DNA of 31,998 nt, taken from a virus. The translations under genes and the position numbers were made by a program. The stretch lies in IMG/VR virus record IMGVR_UViG_3300022602_000284, positions 1-31,998 of that record. The stretch is one strand, 5' to 3'. The notes under the pieces are model-generated. The model was not told where the DNA came from. It did not search any database and saw only the letters and a list, made by a program, of their open reading frames with translations. This document shows, piece by piece, positions 23,370 through 31,390 of this stretch. Position 1 is the first letter of the stretch, and every line of letters starts with the position of its first letter.

Positions 23370-25303
23370 GGTGTGGTTCCTGTTCCTGCGACTGTTCCGC
23401 TAGCTGAGCTTGCTCCAGCTTGTCCAACTGATGCCTCGTTAAAGATAGTGTTGCTTGAGTTAAGTGATGGGTAACGACTAAATGTGACGCTTACTACACT
23501 TAGGATAGGAACCATACGTAGATCAAACATTACGTGGTTAACCTGTATAGACGCAACTGCACCAAAGTAACGAAGGTTGTCATTTAGCCACATCCAACAT
23601 GGAACAGCGGTAGTGTATCCAAAGTCTGAAGTAACTCCACCAAGACTCTTATAAGAATCGCTCAAAAGAGTAGATCCGGTTACAGGACTTCCATTTAGAA
23701 CTCTATATAAGAATTCAATATCATATTCAGTTCCACGATGCAGTATGCCGTACATCTCATTTTTAGAAAGAGGTCGGCCGTACCCAATATCTGTAGTTGT
23801 AGGATCAACGTTATTAAGTTCAGCATTTTCTAAAGCGTTAAGATCCAAGATACGGTTTAGATATAGATCAAAAGTTACCTGTGAGTTACCTACTAGCAGC
23901 GCTGAAGGATCGCTACTTCCATTAGTCCAGTCAACACTGTTATTAGAACTACTGTTATAAGAGAATGTTGTAGGGTTATACATAAATCTAAAGCCCCATT
24001 GTAATGCTTTAGATGTTCCCTTTAATGATAGGCTACTTTGATAGCTGTTTAGTGTGCTTGCACTAAGAGGGTCTTGAAATATACGCCCCTGATTGCTGCT
24101 AGAAGACGCCTGTAAAATTCCTGTAATAGTGGTAGGGTCTTCAGAAAGAAGAAGTTTTTCTAGTCCTACAACCGTCTGCTCAGTTTGTCCAAGAGTAGAA
24201 GACTCATATAGTTGGACTACTTCAGCATAGGACGCTAATCGGCTACCAGAATATGCAGGAGGATTCCACTGATCATTAATAGTAGGAGGGGTAAGAACTT
24301 TTGGGTTAGGTGTTGATGATGTCCCACCTCCAGCACCGCCTGCACCACCATTGCCCGCAACAGTTGTTATTCCTCCGCAAATACCTAAGGCATACTCTTT
24401 GAATTGAGCCAAGATTTTACTAACTTGGGTAGTATCTACTTTGCCGGTAGCTGCTGGAGCTTCAGACGTAGGAGGAATTCCATTAGTAAGTTTTGTATTA
24501 TTAGGTGTACAAGTATACGTAGAGTATGTGTACATAGGCTTACCAGAAGAAGATGCCTTAATCGGAGTAACAGCCAAGCCGTACCATGCGCCTCCAGGAT
24601 AACCAGGGGTAGGACATGGATAGAAAGTCATATAGACCTTACCACCTGCAGTCGCATCTGCTACTAAAGCATTCTCTAGAATAGAGGGGACAGGTGGGGT
24701 AGGCGGCTTTTTAGATATCGTAAGGATTGGGCTGTATCCAGCAAGCGTAGGAAAGATATAGTTATTATTCGTATCTCCATTAAGATTACCACTAGGTCCG
24801 TTAGCAGGAACAATGCCTCCATTGTTGTAGCTAAGAAGCGGTACAGAGATACTTCCTGCTGTGGCAGGTTTAAAATAAAAGTAAAAAACAGTACCATCAT
24901 CATATGCTGTTGATATAGATGTACTGCCAGACCCCTGTGTATTTAAGTTAACATGGTTGTTTGTAGAGTTACCTAGTGCTGCGGCATCTGCAAGTGTGAA
25001 TCTTAAATCCTTTACGACACTGGAATCAAGCCAGTGAATCTGATACCCACTACCTGTAGTAATTACTTGATAGAATCTAACCTGAACCTTGACTTCATTA
25101 TTTGTCTGTAAAGTAATTCTTTTTCCAGCCGCAGGGACGGTTAAAGATGTCGCCTCAGGCATGATCTGGATCCAAGTAGATCCTGGGTTAGTCATAACAG
25201 AGCTGTAGTCAACTGCGTCAATCTGTTCAACGCTGGCGTTGCTACCATTCTCAGTATTACCAAAGATCTGAAGGGTGTAATAGTACGCATATGTTGTAGC
25301 CAT
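23366..25303 (-). CDS. Large tube-initiator/baseplate protein with CIS-tube-like C terminus
   Basis: A 645-residue protein. The first 200 residues are beta-rich and unrecognised; 310-328 is a Gly-rich linker (G-N-G-G-A-G-G-A-G-G-G). Residues about 437-620 include F-R-F-M-Y-N-P-T-T-F-S-Y-N, V-T-F-D-L-Y-L-N-R and V-A-S-I-Q-V-N-H-V-M-F, a pattern I recall in tube-initiation proteins of contractile injection systems (Afp7/Pvc7, gp48/gp54-like). It is encoded between the tape measure and the LysM protein, the expected place for a tube initiator. The N-terminal half may be a phage-specific decoration. The first base of its ATG overlaps the tape measure stop. Confidence 0.65.
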   Translation of the reverse strand: MATTYAYYYTLQIFGNTENGSNASVEQIDAVDYSSVMTNPGSTWIQIMPEATSLTVPAAGKRITLQTNNEVKVQVRFYQVITTGSGYQIHWLDSSVVKDLRFTLADAAALGNSTNNHVNLNTQGSGSTSISTAYDDGTVFYFYFKPATAGSISVPLLSYNNGGIVPANGPSGNLNGDTNNNYIFPTLAGYSPILTISKKPPTPPVPSILENALVADATAGGKVYMTFYPCPTPGYPGGAWYGLAVTPIKASSSGKPMYTYSTYTCTPNNTKLTNGIPPTSEAPAATGKVDTTQVSKILAQFKEYALGICGGITTVAGNGGAGGAGGGTSSTPNPKVLTPPTINDQWNPPAYSGSRLASYAEVVQLYESSTLGQTEQTVVGLEKLLLSEDPTTITGILQASSSSNQGRIFQDPLSASTLNSYQSSLSLKGTSKALQWGFRFMYNPTTFSYNSSSNNSVDWTNGSSDPSALLVGNSQVTFDLYLNRILDLNALENAELNNVDPTTTDIGYGRPLSKNEMYGILHRGTEYDIEFLYRVLNGSPVTGSTLLSDSYKSLGGVTSDFGYTTAVPCWMWLNDNLRYFGAVASIQVNHVMFDLRMVPILSVVSVTFSRYPSLNSSNTIFNEASVGQAGASSASGTVAGTGTTP

Positions 25304-27987
25304 TAACCAATACTTCCAATCGTCTTAAGCAATGAGCTGCTCTTAGCCTCAGCTTCAATCATTTTAATAAATCTCTTTGCATCCGCAACGCTTGCCTGCT
25401 GTGCGTAGAACTTAACGTTAAAGTTAACGTTTACAGTTCCACCTGCACCACCAGAAACTGTTGGGCCACCTCTTCCTGAGGAAGGCATGCTAAGTGTAGT
25501 GCTAACTCCTGCAGTTCCTAGATCACCTGTAGGTCCACCATACCCAGGGATATGAGTTCCCCAAGGTGAATGATCTACTGCGGTGAGCACGCTTCCTACA
25601 TTGTTGCCTTTAGTTAAAGCAGAAAGAATAGACTTATAACGTCCGTTATTAAGAGTTTCAACTGTTGCGGCGTACCCTTGATCCCAAGACTTATAGGATT
25701 TAACGCCTTCATTATTCATGTTGGTTGCTCCAGCTTCAGGCTGGGTAGTATTAAGTGGGTTATAATGAGCAGAGTTATGCCATTGTCCACCTTCCCATGC
25801 GGCCCATGTTGTAAGCGCCCTAACGTTATCTGCTGTTGCCGGCTTACCTAATTTTCCTAGAAGTGTTCTAGCCCAAGCTTGCTGGCTACCTGTTCCTAGA
25901 ATTGTTCCAGCTGTAGTTTGTAATTGACCTTTAATAAAGGACATAGAAGAATTTGAGCTTAGGTTCTTAGAACCGCTAGCTCCAAAGATATTAGATAGGT
26001 CTGAATAGCTGGAAGTATTAAAACTGTTAAGGGCAGAGTTAACGTCCGTGCTGGATAAGGATCCTAGATCAGTGATTGTGCTCTGACTATTGCTTCTTCC
26101 CGTGCTATAAACACGTGAGTTACCTGCTCTAGCATTGCTTGACCCAGAACCTACAAGGTAGGGTGCTGGATTAACTTTCTTTCCATTAACCAATACTTCA
26201 AAGTGAAGGTGGGGACCTGTAACGTTACCAGTAGCGCCGGACTTAGCAATTACCTGTCCGCCGCTTACCTTTTGTCCTCTAGATACCATGATGGAAGATA
26301 GGTGGGCATAACGTGTGCGGTATGAGCCGTGGTCAATTTCAATGTAGTTACCGTAGCCGCCACCGTTACCGATAAGAGTTACTGTACCAGAATCATGAGC
26401 ATATACAGGTGATCCTGTTTGGACACCATAGTCAACGCCCGGGTGAAAGCCTTTAGTCTTTGCTCCGCCGCCACGAGGGCCATATGGAGATGTGATTGGG
26501 GTTCCCTTAGAAACAGGAAGAATGTTGTCATGTCCTTCTGTAGGGCCACCAATACCACCATGTCCCATAGAGCCATGATCAGCCGGACCTCCAGCCAAAA
26601 CTTCAGGATCAGCTTCAAGGAATCCAAATACACTCTTAAGTACATTACCTGCACCGCCTAGTATGCCCGGTACTTTAGACCCAATCTTTGATAGTAAGCT
26701 TTGCTCCCCTTTAGAGGTAAACTTTCCATTAGAAAGAAGAGGTCCAATTTGTGACTCTTCACCTTTTAGCGCAGATGTAATACTTCTTTTAAGTGAGCGA
26801 TTCATAAGCGCATTAGCACCCAAAGTTGCTACTGTGCTCCCTACGCCTGAAATTGTTCCGCCGACGCTCCCAGCACCAGGAAAGGTTTGCAAGAATCCCT
26901 TAAGTCCCATGAGGGCCTTAGTCACTCCGTCTGCAGAAGCAGCAAGGTTTGCAAGATTATTAGTAACATCTGCATTTGCATTGAGGGCAGTATTGTAGCC
27001 ACCTACAAGTCCAGACTCAGTTGAGCCTAACAGATTAGCTTGGGCGGTGTTGTTTTTAAAATTAGAATAGAGAGGGCTTGAGCTATCAACACCCATAGTC
27101 TTGAGCATGGTAAGACCATTACTCATCTCATTAGACGTCAGTCCGCTTCCAGCCTTAGCACGGGCCATCATTCCAGACTGTAAAGTTTGTAGCAAGCCCT
27201 GGTTGCCGCCTGCAAGAGCAATAAGTGTTTGGGTACCTGGTCCATTAGGACTTAAGAATGTTGCCGCTACTTGAGCCTGTGTAAGCTGTCTTCCGCCTAC
27301 AAGACTGTTCCAAACATTGTTAATAATTTGATTTGGTGGTAGCAAGTTGCCGCTGGCATCACGGACTCTGATTCCTTTAGATAGGAAGTTCATTCCATTT
27401 ATGCTGCCCATAGCACCGGCCGCTTGTTCGTTACTCATACCGGTCATAGCACTAAGGCCGCCGATTTGTCCCATAACGTTATTAGAGCTTGCGCTTCCTG
27501 CAAGTAAGCCCATAGAAGATAGATTTGCTGCTGCCATGGTTGGGCCCATAGCGCTTGTAGCTCCCATGCCAACTTGCATATTAGCCATCTTTGTGGCTTG
27601 CATATTGGTCATGCCTGAGAAGCCGGCATAAGTAGATGCGGCAAGGGCTTGTGTAACCGCCGACATAGTAGACGGCGCCATAGAAGAGAGGATTGATCCT
27701 GTAGCGACTACGCCTAGTCCTAGACCGGTAGCTACTGAACCTACGCTAAAAGATCCTAGCCCTAGTTTGCCGGAGCCTGGGGTTGAGCTTCCGGCATCTT
27801 TAGATACGTCTTTAATACTTGAGGCTGTGCCTTCCCAAGTCTTAGCAATCTTATTAACAAGAGATTCTACTTGGGTAAATAGTTTGAGCAGGTCTTTAGG
27901 CATGTCTTCAAAAGAAGACATAGATGAGATGCCAGCAAATCCACCAGAAGCATCATCTGGTGAGATTAAATTCTGAGATCCAGCCAT
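25303..27987 (-). CDS. Tape measure protein with M23 peptidase and lysozyme-like domains
   Basis: An 894-residue tail length protein. The N-terminal 480 residues are Ala/Gly/Ser/Met-rich and helical, with hydrophobic stretches near 82-105 and 370-395. Residues about 495-612 are an M23 endopeptidase with zinc ligands H515-P-G-V-D519 and H595 in G-P-H593-L-H595, and Y-A-H562. Residues 697-815 resemble a lysozyme-like domain of the kind found in actinophage tape measures (W731-E732-G-G, Y-N-P-L-N-T-T, Y-K-S-W-D-Q-G-Y-A-A-T), with E732 as possible catalytic acid. Both would open the cell wall during DNA entry. The start has GGCGGTGAT upstream, five bases after the frameshift-frame stop. Confidence 0.92.
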   Translation of the reverse strand: MAGSQNLISPDDASGGFAGISSMSSFEDMPKDLLKLFTQVESLVNKIAKTWEGTASSIKDVSKDAGSSTPGSGKLGLGSFSVGSVATGLGLGVVATGSILSSMAPSTMSAVTQALAASTYAGFSGMTNMQATKMANMQVGMGATSAMGPTMAAANLSSMGLLAGSASSNNVMGQIGGLSAMTGMSNEQAAGAMGSINGMNFLSKGIRVRDASGNLLPPNQIINNVWNSLVGGRQLTQAQVAATFLSPNGPGTQTLIALAGGNQGLLQTLQSGMMARAKAGSGLTSNEMSNGLTMLKTMGVDSSSPLYSNFKNNTAQANLLGSTESGLVGGYNTALNANADVTNNLANLAASADGVTKALMGLKGFLQTFPGAGSVGGTISGVGSTVATLGANALMNRSLKRSITSALKGEESQIGPLLSNGKFTSKGEQSLLSKIGSKVPGILGGAGNVLKSVFGFLEADPEVLAGGPADHGSMGHGGIGGPTEGHDNILPVSKGTPITSPYGPRGGGAKTKGFHPGVDYGVQTGSPVYAHDSGTVTLIGNGGGYGNYIEIDHGSYRTRYAHLSSIMVSRGQKVSGGQVIAKSGATGNVTGPHLHFEVLVNGKKVNPAPYLVGSGSSNARAGNSRVYSTGRSNSQSTITDLGSLSSTDVNSALNSFNTSSYSDLSNIFGASGSKNLSSNSSMSFIKGQLQTTAGTILGTGSQQAWARTLLGKLGKPATADNVRALTTWAAWEGGQWHNSAHYNPLNTTQPEAGATNMNNEGVKSYKSWDQGYAATVETLNNGRYKSILSALTKGNNVGSVLTAVDHSPWGTHIPGYGGPTGDLGTAGVSTTLSMPSSGRGGPTVSGGAGGTVNVNFNVKFYAQQASVADAKRFIKMIEAEAKSSSLLKTIGSIG

Positions 27988-27992
27988 TTAGA

Positions 27993-28142
27993 TCACCGCC
28001 TTGTCCTTTTAAGAGCCGTATTTAGCCAATTAAGTCGCTCTCTCAGACTGAGGGAACGAATCTCTGTTAATGACCACCCAGGATATTGTTGACTTAATAA
28101 GTCATACATTTCCATAAGTAGTTCGTAGTCAATCTCGCTAGC
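27993..28142 (-). CDS. Frameshift-frame extension of the gp26/28-like protein (tail chaperone-like)
   Basis: A reading frame, open from 28154 to the TGA at 27993, gives 49 residues after the slip: A-S-E-I-D-Y-E-L-L-M-E-M-Y-D-L-L, then Y-P-G-W-S-L-T-E-I-R and L-R-E-R-L-N-W-L-N. The Y..L-M-E...W-S..E...L...E-R..W-L layout resembles, from memory, the short DUF6760-type proteins or tails next to gp26-like genes in contractile injection systems. The only internal ATGs (28115 and 28109) lack a Shine-Dalgarno, so I favour a +1 shift from the overlapping gene, giving a 321-residue fusion. A stand-alone 40-residue protein from 28115 is the alternative. Confidence 0.65.
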   Translation of the reverse strand, partial: ASEIDYELLMEMYDLLSQQYPGWSLTEIRSLSLRERLNWLNTALKRTRR

Positions 28143-28169
28143 GAAATAGTTCCGCTAAGGTTAGCGGAA
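28138..28169 (-). other. Candidate +1 programmed frameshift site with upstream hairpin
   Basis: The zero frame ends CTA TTT CGC TAG. In the only window where both frames are open (28154-28138), tRNA-Phe on TTT (28146-28144) can re-pair with TTC one base on; GCG, GAA, CTA and CGC cannot. A 9-bp inverted repeat (28150-28158 with 28161-28169) lies three bases before TTT. Shift product would be 321 residues. Confidence 0.55.
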
Positions 28170-28959
28170 GCGGTACCTCCGTGCCGCAAGACTGACATGG
28201 TTTCTTGATTTCGCTAAGTTGTGGGCCAGGGTTTCGGTTTGTGATCTCTTCCAGGATATCCTTACGATCCTTGATACCAAGGTTTCGTACAGTCTCCGGG
28301 TTAATTACAGGAGCTCCATTAATAGACTTAATGCAGTTCTTCAGAAGAATTGTATCTAATTCTGCTGAGGTTTTGTTGGTAGACGTGATAAGAGCTTTTT
28401 GGGTAACACCTGTAGGAAGGGATACCTGCACTTCTCCTACCTTACAGCTGACAGTAAAATCGCTAGATCCCTCAAGCTTCTTGATAGGAACATCGTTTAC
28501 TAGGTCTACTTCAAAGGTTTGTTCTACTCCGCATGAAGGACAGTTACCTGGACCGATTTTAATGTCAGGTCCAAAGGTTACGTTTCTAATTCCTAGGAGA
28601 ATCATTTCACGGTCTCCCGCAAATAAAGCATCTAGGATGTCCTTGTTAGCGACTTCATCGCCAATCTTAACTGTGGCTCTTTCAAGAATAGTTAGAAGTG
28701 CTTTACCAAGATCTGAGATCTTAGAGATTGTCTCCTCGTCTACACCTGTTAGCTCTCGAACCTCCGCTGTATTAATAGACACGCCTGTGAAGGGATCTAT
28801 TAATCCAGCTGGAAGTTCAATAGTTGTCTCAGGAGGCAACTTTATTGGATCCGGCTGTAAAGCCGCAGTTGTTGCCTCCTGTTGAGCCATTGCAGCAGCC
28901 GCTAGTTTATTGGCGGCCGCTGGGTTTGCTGTAGCTTTTATAACAGTATCGTTAGACAT
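28138..28959 (-). CDS. Baseplate hub/chaperone protein, T4 gp26/gp28-like
   Basis: A 273-residue protein. After a disordered Ala-rich N terminus (1-40), the centre has L-F-A-G-D-R-E-M-I-L-L-G-I-R-N-V-T-F-G and C140-P-S-C143, then a second pair C255-Q-S-C258 near the end. This arrangement is that of T4 gp26/gp28-type baseplate hub proteins; two zinc sites are likely. It ends P-L-P-L-T-L-A-E-L-F-R just where a +1 reading frame continues. Position directly before the tape measure is the usual site of tail-assembly chaperones that use frameshifting. Confidence 0.8.
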   Translation of the reverse strand: MSNDTVIKATANPAAANKLAAAAMAQQEATTAALQPDPIKLPPETTIELPAGLIDPFTGVSINTAEVRELTGVDEETISKISDLGKALLTILERATVKIGDEVANKDILDALFAGDREMILLGIRNVTFGPDIKIGPGNCPSCGVEQTFEVDLVNDVPIKKLEGSSDFTVSCKVGEVQVSLPTGVTQKALITSTNKTSAELDTILLKNCIKSINGAPVINPETVRNLGIKDRKDILEEITNRNPGPQLSEIKKPCQSCGTEVPLPLTLAELFR

Positions 28960-28982: not shown

Positions 28983-29612
28983 TTATGCGAATGTTGTGTA
29001 CTTTGCTGTTCCTGCTGCTGAGTAGTCTGTTGCGTATGCGACGTCGAAACCTTCATGAACAAGCTGTAGCTCTTCTACCATGAGTGTGTTAGCACCGGCA
29101 TCAAGGTTTGAGTATGCAAGGGATGTGATCCATGCGTTATAAACCTTGAAACGAAGAGAGGTATGCTGATCGGTTGGGTTTGAAGCTTGTGCGCCTGTTG
29201 TACCTGAACCTGTCATACCTTCTGGGTTTGGATGTGTTAGAACTTGGATATCCAAGTTAACACGGAAATCCGCACCTAGACCTGTTGTAGATGTTGGAGT
29301 GGTGACTTCGAACAGTCTTTTCATCCAAGCAGCATTTGTATTCTGACCAATCATAGATCCCTTAGAAAGGGTGATTGGTGTGAATGACGTCTGACCAGGA
29401 ATCTGGTGAACGTTGGTGTTATATCCGCCTTCACGGTAAGCAATAGACTCTGTTGAGATGCTTAGACCGGAAAGAGATACGAAGCCCATTGATCCGATAG
29501 GATTTGTTGGAGTCGCTCCGGTACCGCTAGGAACTGGATAGAAGGTTACTAGGAACTTAAAATTACGGATTGGATCCGAAACCAAGTTACTAAAGGATGG
29601 TGTTAGTGCCAT
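28983..29612 (-). CDS. Tail tube protein, gp19-like
   Basis: A 209-residue inner tube protein. The pattern F-L-V-T-F-Y-P-V near 19-26, F-V-S-L-S-G-L-S-I-S-T-E-S-I-A-Y-R-E-G-G, then I-T-L-S-K-G and W-M-K-R-L-F-E matches the gp19 family (D-x-[KR]-G used in many). It forms hexameric rings stacked inside the sheath and around the tape measure. The ribosome site AAGGAGA precedes the ATG. It is encoded directly after the sheath, the universal order for contractile tails. Confidence 0.93.
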   Translation of the reverse strand: MALTPSFSNLVSDPIRNFKFLVTFYPVPSGTGATPTNPIGSMGFVSLSGLSISTESIAYREGGYNTNVHQIPGQTSFTPITLSKGSMIGQNTNAAWMKRLFEVTTPTSTTGLGADFRVNLDIQVLTHPNPEGMTGSGTTGAQASNPTDQHTSLRFKVYNAWITSLAYSNLDAGANTLMVEELQLVHEGFDVAYATDYSAAGTAKYTTFA

Positions 29613-29626
29613 TTTATTTTATCTCC

Positions 29627-31390
29627 TTACGCCGAAGCGTTTCCTGTGAGCTGGCTGACATTTACGATAACGAACTCAGCTGGGTATTCAAGGGCAACGC
29701 CAACCTTAACATTCACACGACCTGCTTGCATATCTGCAAAGGATGTGGTTGTTGCGTCGCATTGTACGAAGAATGCCTGTGTAGAGTTCGAACCTCTAAG
29801 TCCACCATTTTGCCAGTAGTTAAACAAGAAGGTGGTTAGGATTGTATTGAGCTTTGACCATAGTACTGAGTCATTGTTCTCAAAGATAGCAAATGCGCTT
29901 AGATCCTGGATAGACTTCTCAATGTAGATAAGAGAACGACGAATGTTGATGTAACGATTGTTTGGAGTATTATCCAAAGTACGTCCACCCATTACAACAA
30001 TTCCGGCACCAGGTACTTGACGGATAGGGTTGATTGGATCAACAGAGGTATTAAGCGAATCAAGTTCAGCATTTGTAAATGAGTGGTTTGTAGAAACAGC
30101 AAGAGCGATCTTGTTGTTAAAACCAGCCGGTGTCTTAGAAGGACCACGAAGAGCATCTGTAGCTAGGTATTGTCCTAGTACTGCTGCGCCTGGAGCCTGT
30201 GAACGAGTTGTACCCTGGATCTTTGTGATGTCTGGAATGTTAACCCATGGGTAGTAAGCAGCCGCAATATTTCCAGTTGTGCTTGCTGCAGCAATTGCTC
30301 CAGTAGCTGTAATCTGAGTTTGAGCTTGAGCTACAGACATTTGATCTGGAGTATCAACGATTGCAAAGCAATCTGTACGGCTAGCAGCATAAGTAATTGC
30401 ATCACCATGAAGCTGTGATGTGAGTGTTGATGTTGACTGATACGGTGCATCTGGTGCGTATAGAACTAGGCTGCTTGGGACTGCGTCATAGTTAGACCAG
30501 CCTGCTGCGTACTGTGCACGTGTAGGTGCTACACCATCTACGCCACCAGAAACTGATAGTGGTGAAGATGTTACGCCTGGAGTTACCGTGCTATTGACTG
30601 CGCCTACTGTAAAGGTCTGAGAACCAGAGTTAATTACAGAAAGAACATAGTTCGTATCTGTTGAGCTCATGCTTAGATCTTGGTAGGTCTCTACAGGAGT
30701 TGTGCTAGATACGCCATTAATTGTAACAGACGCATAGATAACAACGTTAAAACGTGAAGGTGTTCCAGCAGGTACGATGTTAACTGTGTAGTTATTTGAC
30801 CATGAACCTGGGTTATTAGCTGTCAATGTAAAGGCATTTGATGGTGTCAGAGTAACTGTTGCGGTAGCAGATGCGCCTGTAACAGCGGTACCTGTAGCTG
30901 CGTTAGTTACTGTGAACTGGGTTGACGTAGCTGTAGCAATTGTTACGCTAGTCAAGTTAAAGGCTGAAGTTGAGAGTCCTGTGATAGAGACTGTCTGTCC
31001 AGCTGTAAATGAGTTAGAAGCTGTATATGTAACAGTTCCGCTTGAAGCAGATGCTGCTGTTACTGTAGCTGTTAGGGTACCTGTAGCTCCGTTTGTAACG
31101 GTTACTGCTCCTGTAGCTGCGCTTGCTCCTACTACACGTTGTACGTAGAGGTTGCGACCACCATTAGCAAAAAAGTTATAGGCAGCCCAAGTTGTTGGGT
31201 AGGAATCATTCAATCCACCGAATGTATTCACAAAATCAGTCCAAGTGCGTACCTGTACTGGCGCTAAGATAGGACCCTGTGCAAGGGCTCCCACGAAAGC
31301 ACCAATAGCAGTACTGGTATTACCAGCTGCAATTGACTGAGGAAGTGCTACTTCCTGGATAAAGACTCCCGGGCGACTGTATGTTGCCAT
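29627..31390 (-). CDS. Contractile tail sheath protein
   Basis: A 587-residue sheath subunit. It begins Y-S-R-P-G-V-F-I-Q-E-V, the sheath N-terminal signature, and has V-G-A-L-A-Q-G-P and F-V-N-T-F-G-G in the first 60 residues. The C-terminal domain includes V-V-M-G-G-R-T-L, I-N-I-R-R-S-L-I-Y-I-E-K-S-I and V-K-V-G-V-A-L-E-Y-P-A-E-F, the conserved core that contracts. Residues about 100-185 are a Thr/Ala/Ser-rich beta insert (with V-S-I-T-G-L-S and F-T-V-T-N) that is probably displayed outside. Length exceeds minimal sheaths (about 480) because of this insert. This is the clearest evidence for a myovirus tail. Confidence 0.95.
   Translation of the reverse strand: MATYSRPGVFIQEVALPQSIAAGNTSTAIGAFVGALAQGPILAPVQVRTWTDFVNTFGGLNDSYPTTWAAYNFFANGGRNLYVQRVVGASAATGAVTVTNGATGTLTATVTAASASSGTVTYTASNSFTAGQTVSITGLSTSAFNLTSVTIATATSTQFTVTNAATGTAVTGASATATVTLTPSNAFTLTANNPGSWSNNYTVNIVPAGTPSRFNVVIYASVTINGVSSTTPVETYQDLSMSSTDTNYVLSVINSGSQTFTVGAVNSTVTPGVTSSPLSVSGGVDGVAPTRAQYAAGWSNYDAVPSSLVLYAPDAPYQSTSTLTSQLHGDAITYAASRTDCFAIVDTPDQMSVAQAQTQITATGAIAAASTTGNIAAAYYPWVNIPDITKIQGTTRSQAPGAAVLGQYLATDALRGPSKTPAGFNNKIALAVSTNHSFTNAELDSLNTSVDPINPIRQVPGAGIVVMGGRTLDNTPNNRYINIRRSLIYIEKSIQDLSAFAIFENNDSVLWSKLNTILTTFLFNYWQNGGLRGSNSTQAFFVQCDATTTSFADMQAGRVNVKVGVALEYPAEFVIVNVSQLTGNASA

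Follow-up and report, generated by a model that had tools for sequence, protein, structure and literature searches.

The stretch of viral DNA analysed here (the window) comprises positions 1–31,998 of the IMG/VR record IMGVR_UViG_3300022602_000284 and is 31,998 nucleotides long. The genes of the locus all lie on the minus strand, as do the features of the window whose coordinates are given below. In the direction of transcription, a tail sheath protein (29627–31390), recognised by domain and PHROG matches, is followed by a tail tube protein of the T4 gp19 family (28983–29612), just upstream of a gene of the T4_baseplate family (28138–28959), and then by a tape-measure gene candidate of 894 residues (25303–27987). 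The candidate is supported by Pfam and PHROG matches, with an M23 peptidase domain (Pfam M23, E=6e-31; residues 514–607, in mid-protein) and hits to the PHROG tape-measure and endolysin families. The T4_baseplate-family gene thus has the position of a chaperone-type gene, directly before the tape measure and after tube and sheath.

The 273-residue product of this gene matches PF12322, the T4 gp26/gp51 family (E=6e-11, 42.9 bits against a cut-off of 24.5), and PHROG 150, annotated as baseplate hub. An earlier reading of the sequence had called the gene gp26/28-like; the gp26 half of that description agrees with the family match and the gp28 half does not. A sequence search of the PDB gave no matches. 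The predicted structure of the 0-frame protein, which reached a pLDDT of 84 with a deeper alignment (40 in the first fold), has as its top match among solved structures the HK97 tail assembly chaperone 2ob9, with a probability of 0.95–0.97 but E=0.14; its matches among viral models are to hub assembly proteins from T4-like phages. A putative role as tail assembly chaperone is supported by the HK97 match of the model together with the place of the gene before the tape measure.

The 273-codon reading frame ends GCG GAA CTA TTT CGC TAG, with the stop at 28138–28140. The +1 frame is open from the TTC at 28145–28143 for 50 codons, a Phe codon and 49 more (27996–28145), as far as a TGA at 27993–27995, and five bases (TCTAA) then separate this stop from the tape-measure ATG. 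If TTTC is read as a single Phe step the product has 321 residues. The original prediction had the gene end, the 49-residue continuation and the spacing to the ATG right. It was equally accurate on the only place at which a tRNA could change frame: over the stretch in which both frames are open, GCG GAA CTA TTT CGC, the +1 partner codons are CGG, AAC, TAT, TTC and GCT, and the same tRNA can re-pair solely at the step from TTT to TTC. The slip site is thus TTT_C (28143–28146), with UUU in the P site re-pairing on UUC and the 0-frame codon CGC (28141–28143) in the A site. The window has about 30 further in-frame copies of this tetranucleotide, and four copies of TTT_CGN counting this site, so UUU_C alone is not strongly slippery and its context must matter.

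Conservation of this arrangement was assessed in 71 loci from two IMG/VR scans, with four Streptomyces phages added for the slip-site count and with five loci that end before the site, and one (L051) whose frame is cut by an early stop, left out. In L051 the chaperone frame stops after about query residue 218, through either an assembly error or a broken gene. TTT_C is present in register in all 69 readable relatives, 58 of them distinct, at identities of 33–100%; these relatives are not mutually independent, so that there were fewer independent events than the counts suggest, and the argument rests on their spread across divergent lineages. The A-site codon is CGN in 55 of the 58 distinct relatives, CAG in two and CTC in one, and further out CTG, CAA and CCG are also found; a strict requirement for UUU_CGN was dropped once the CTN, CAR and CCG loci turned up. 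The 0-frame stop follows TTT at a distance of two, three or four codons, and it is therefore not the fixed element.

The breadth of this sample bears on two other ways in which the frames might be joined. The first is that a sequencing or assembly indel has split one continuous gene, for which the bacterial relatives with in-frame fusions described below might be taken to speak. The identical break recurs across many assemblies, at 69 loci, and in the complete genomes of cultured phages; this excludes an indel, and we give this explanation practically no weight. The second is a −2 slip of the kind used by phage Mu, or slippage during transcription, as the route into the +1 frame; the +1 and −2 frames are identical, and the U-runs at the site are longer in some distant homologues. 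A −2 slip, however, needs a re-pairing codon before TTT, and the codon found there is CTA, TTG, CTC, CTG, ATC, GTG, GCG, ACC or CTT; the three T in the window are too short for polymerase slippage. We consider either route very improbable.

The extension itself shows the substitution pattern of a coding sequence. Among 34 close loci, variation in the +1 frame is 0.30 at third positions, 0.13 at first and 0.07 at second, and pairwise dN/dS is about 0.1–0.5 for those pairs in which dS could be computed. From this pattern we conclude that the +1 extension is evolving as a protein under purifying selection and, on the same comparative grounds, that the conserved dual-frame arrangement is beyond what chance would give. 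All relatives retain the module YPGWSLTEIRSLSLRERLNWL, which is predicted, by analogy, to be helical. Its likeness to DUF6760, suggested in the original prediction, is weak: the extension in the window has no Pfam DUF6760 match, and DUF6760 (PF20546) is approached weakly, below its cut-off, through relatives (BRock, E=0.17; L112, 20.3 bits against 27). Matches to Phage_P2_GpE (PF06528) are likewise sub-threshold, at 15.5 bits for the window extension and 19.1 bits for L047 against a cut-off of 23.

Could the extension instead be a small gene in its own right, with ribosomes reinitiating, or starting internally, close to the stop of the short form? ATG codons do occur at extension codons 8, 10 or 12 in the window and its nearest relatives, and a separate small ORF is annotated in the phages BRock, LuckySocke, GiJojo, SP-15 and immuto. 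In the window, the sequence ATG GAA ATG (28107–28115; extension codons 10 and 12) lacks a Shine-Dalgarno sequence, as had been noted, and these codons are not conserved as starts. Several phage lineages have no possible start codon (ATG, GTG or TTG) before the extension core, and the same is true of 11 of 12 bacterial loci; conservation of the extension begins directly after TTT_C; and the extension is in frame in homologues, with T4 gp51 continuous through the junction. We therefore regard a separate gene as very unlikely, if slightly less so than a −2 slip. An alignment of relatives had been proposed as a check on the frameshift, and it reveals conservation of TTT_C and of both frames: no close relative with an intact +1 frame has lost TTT_C, and in no close relative does the extension have its own conserved start and ribosome site. 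A +1 programmed frameshift giving a 321-residue fusion is thus the best reading, as originally predicted, with TTT_C in 69 of 69 relatives and the +1 frame under purifying selection.

The same organisation is seen in cultured phages. The +1 extension follows TTT_CGC or TTT_CAG in the Streptomyces phages BRock, LuckySocke, pSt2308 and GiJojo (identity about 33%), and Bacillus phage SP-15, Streptococcus phage GXN1, Flavobacterium phage immuto and a 484-kb metagenomic phage have TTT_C and the +1 extension. Listeria phage LIS04 and Microcystis phage Mel-JY01 have TTT_T at the site. In three loci (L078, L084 and L115) TTT TTT followed by A or TGG replaces TTT_C, and these are possible UUU_U +1 sites. 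In Agrobacterium phage Atu_ph07 and Xanthomonas phage XacN1 the extension lies in the −1 frame after U-runs, and this is probably the case also in a 595-kb phage. Published phage records call the out-of-frame extension a separate small hypothetical protein at L073 (4255–4437), L074 (4303–4458), L076 (4258–4455), L080 (3321–3440) and L085 (3330–3440); it is unannotated in L075 (pSt2308) and L078 (LIS04).

Bacterial genomes add further lineages and further routes to the long form. A +1 extension lies behind TTT_C in twelve of twelve loci, from actinobacteria (Streptomyces, Saccharothrix, Nonomuraea and Terracoccus) and from two MAGs of other groups. Every one of these loci, GC-rich in the actinobacteria, uses TTT as its slip codon; elsewhere in the same genes there are 9 TTT against 66 TTC. 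In acidobacterial and proteobacterial contractile-system loci the extension is instead in the −1 frame, at TTT TTT TTG. Ten bacterial contractile-system or phage-like loci (L109–L114, L128, L137, L149 and L151) have U-runs followed by the extension in frame −1 and are probable unannotated −1 frameshifts. A later sample, picked by PF12322 alone, served as a fresh test set. Every usable locus in it has the extension, mostly as an in-frame fusion and in some cases in the −1 frame (mostly at T_TTT_TTA), and those that use the +1 frame carry TTT_C or TTT_T. The in-frame fusions show the long form to be a genuine protein architecture. Fusions of PF12322 with the extension are found in Streptomyces-order genomes such as L118, L121–L127 and L129–L136, and the PF12322 family is present in 67 of the 394 genomes sampled. 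In a quick tree the window falls within a 28-row +1 clade with a support of 99, and at least five changes of mode are needed. A nucleotide search of phages and a protein search of plasmids returned no matches.

Two elements upstream of the slip site are candidates for stimulators. The first is an inverted repeat, TTCCGCTAA-CC-TTAGCGGAA (28150–28169), which is perfect over 9 bp and ends 3 nt before TTT; as RNA it folds into a stem of 8 bp with a 4-nt loop (−10.9 kcal/mol). The original prediction was correct as to the perfect repeat three bases upstream. Conservation base for base did not hold, and we rejected it, with pairing falling to between 1 and 5 of the 9 positions in distant relatives. 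What does hold is the position of the stem-loop, whose end sits 2–7 nt upstream of TTT. In 10 main-clade representatives it is more stable than synonymous recoding predicts (z from −2.7 to −4.4), while the pairs themselves change; in outgroups the z values are weaker (−0.8 to −2.2), and outside the main clade the evidence for a stem-loop is suggestive. Downstream of the site, RNA structure exceeds its expected stability in some loci of the main clade, but not consistently.

The second element is a Shine-Dalgarno-like GGAGG upstream of the stem-loop (28176–28180). At −33, all 57 loci that have Glu there encode it by GAG, against 37% expected from the share of GAG in these genes, and this conserved codon yields GAGG or GGAGG upstream of the stem-loop. 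Judged from these patterns the stem-loop probably stimulates the shift, and the GGAGG possibly does so. In T4 genes 25 and 38 a stem-loop shortens the Shine-Dalgarno spacing at initiation (PMC3014915), and by analogy the stem-loop here may act on Shine-Dalgarno spacing in a similar way.

Comparison with T4 suggests what the two products may be. T4 gp26 and gp51 are both covered by PF12322 and PHROG 150, with gp26 ending near the end of the short form and gp51 reaching further at the C-terminus. A profile of diverse fusions aligns with a profile of nine gp51 sequences (E=8e-8) through the junction and as far as gp51 residue 245 of 249; the fused profile scores 59.8 against gp51, compared with 43.6 when the extension is removed. 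The extension on its own scores 25.0 against the gp51 C-terminus, with 8.0±1.6 (maximum 14.5) for 300 column shuffles. An independent HMM test likewise gave preference over shuffles to gp51, to the −1 extensions and to the tails of in-frame fusions, with a weak preference for P2 E'. Profiles are needed on both sides, as single T4 gp26 or gp51 sequences gave no meaningful alignment with the phage-only profile. Frameshifting in tail-chaperone genes is conserved in long-tailed phages, with T4 named as the exception (PMC5009743). From the profile matches we infer that T4 genes 26 (short) and 51 (long) are probably a two-gene, paralogous version of the short/long pair. We found no report in the open-access literature of a frameshift in the PF12322 family, or of gp26 and gp51 as a short/long pair.

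A further possibility is that the shift is real and that its product is a structural component of the hub with a C-terminal variant, not a pair of tail-assembly chaperones. The family carries the name baseplate hub, and gp26 was placed in the hub by some of the T4 genetics (PMC3004832). The same review lists gp26 and gp51 as hub assembly chaperones and reports gp51 to be absent from T4 virions, and the position of the gene directly before the tape measure, the P2-E'-like extension (weak) and the HK97 chaperone fold match (E=0.14) all point away from a structural component. We consider that explanation unlikely, although it deserves more weight than a separate gene, a −2 slip or an indel.

We are thus largely confident that a tail (baseplate-hub) assembly chaperone is made in two lengths, short and long, through a +1 frameshift at UUU_C, a pair for which T4 probably has two genes. 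Slippage, as we infer it from the conserved dual coding, would have an efficiency such that most ribosomes stop at TAG and release the 273-residue short form. In the remainder, tRNA-Phe(GAA) would occupy UUU in the P site, with a codon beginning with C in the A site, and would slip one base forward to pair with UUC; the +1 frame would then be read for 49 codons, giving the 321-residue long form with its conserved module. The tRNA-Phe(GAA) pairs better with UUC than with UUU, and the forward slip would be favoured for that reason. The 5' stem-loop, possibly with the preceding GGAGG, would stimulate the shift. A phage-borne tRNA was considered as a helper and dropped, since no tRNA genes were found in the window. 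The presumed targets of both forms are the tail tube and the product of the neighbouring tape-measure gene, as in lambda gpG/gpGT and P2 gpE/gpE+E'.

On the comparative evidence, then, the hub/tail chaperone gene, which is of T4 type, most probably carries a conserved programmed frameshift in the +1 direction, and its evolutionary story is wider than was originally proposed. It ties the frameshift rule of tail chaperones to the T4 hub-assembly proteins gp26 and gp51, may explain the apparent exception of T4, and predicts that gp51 is the long form of gp26. UUU_C also emerges as a well-conserved +1 site, of a kind seldom characterised in phages and bacterial phage-like loci; the phages that have it include cultured ones of Streptomyces, Bacillus, Streptococcus and Flavobacterium. 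Annotation pipelines currently split or miss the extension. More tentatively, and with a slight leaning against it on our part, these systems might form a +1 class in bacteria and their phages. The slip in such a class would be driven by a stem-loop immediately 5' of UUU_C together with a Shine-Dalgarno-like GAGG further upstream, and the long form of the chaperone would be reached by +1 shift, −1 shift, fusion or duplication, with T4 no exception. As part of the same joint reading, the drive from a 5' stem-loop would be the mirror image of the 3' structures that drive −1 shifts.

The tail chaperone genes of lambda (G/GT), P2 (E/E+E') and HK97 shift −1. They share with the present gene its place before the tape measure and the production of a short form and a frameshift-extended long form, and P2 E' carries a similar W..E(I/L)..(M/L)S..E...W module (weak score). 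The system described here differs in shifting +1 at UUU_C and in having a protein of the PF12322 family at its N-terminus. T4 gp26 and gp51 belong to that same family, gp51 having the extra C-terminal module, and differ in being two genes without a frameshift. The RF2 (prfB) site is CUU_UGA; the A site there holds the stop, and a Shine-Dalgarno sequence lies three bases upstream. The likeness to RF2 lies in a forward slip near a 0-frame stop with an upstream Shine-Dalgarno-like element; here, however, the stop is 2–4 codons past the slip codon and the GGAGG is some 30 nt upstream, beyond the stem-loop, so that the site is not of the RF2 type.

A parallel to the slip itself comes from the UUU_CGN +1 sites of influenza A PA-X and the plant amalgaviruses (PMC5052127), in which UUU likewise re-pairs on UUC. 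In contrast to these, the present system is bacterial, has a 5' stem-loop and a nearby stop, and has CGN at 55 of 58 sites yet does not need it, as the CTN, CAR and CCG loci show. The original prediction had called a +1 shift with a 5' hairpin unusual. In phage tail genes +1 shifts are indeed uncommon, but they have precedents: they occur in structural genes of the Listeria phages PSA, A118 and A500, and one is predicted in the tail chaperone of the haloarchaeal myovirus HSTV-2 (PMC5009743). The Listeria sites are proline CCC codons in capsid and tail-shaft genes, not chaperones; HSTV-2, an archaeal virus, is alike, by description, in its +1 tail-chaperone shift. Finally, gp143 and gp144 of phage 0305phi8-36 are a short/long tail chaperone pair encoded by two genes without a frameshift (PMC2147016), an arrangement that, by description, resembles the one proposed here for T4.
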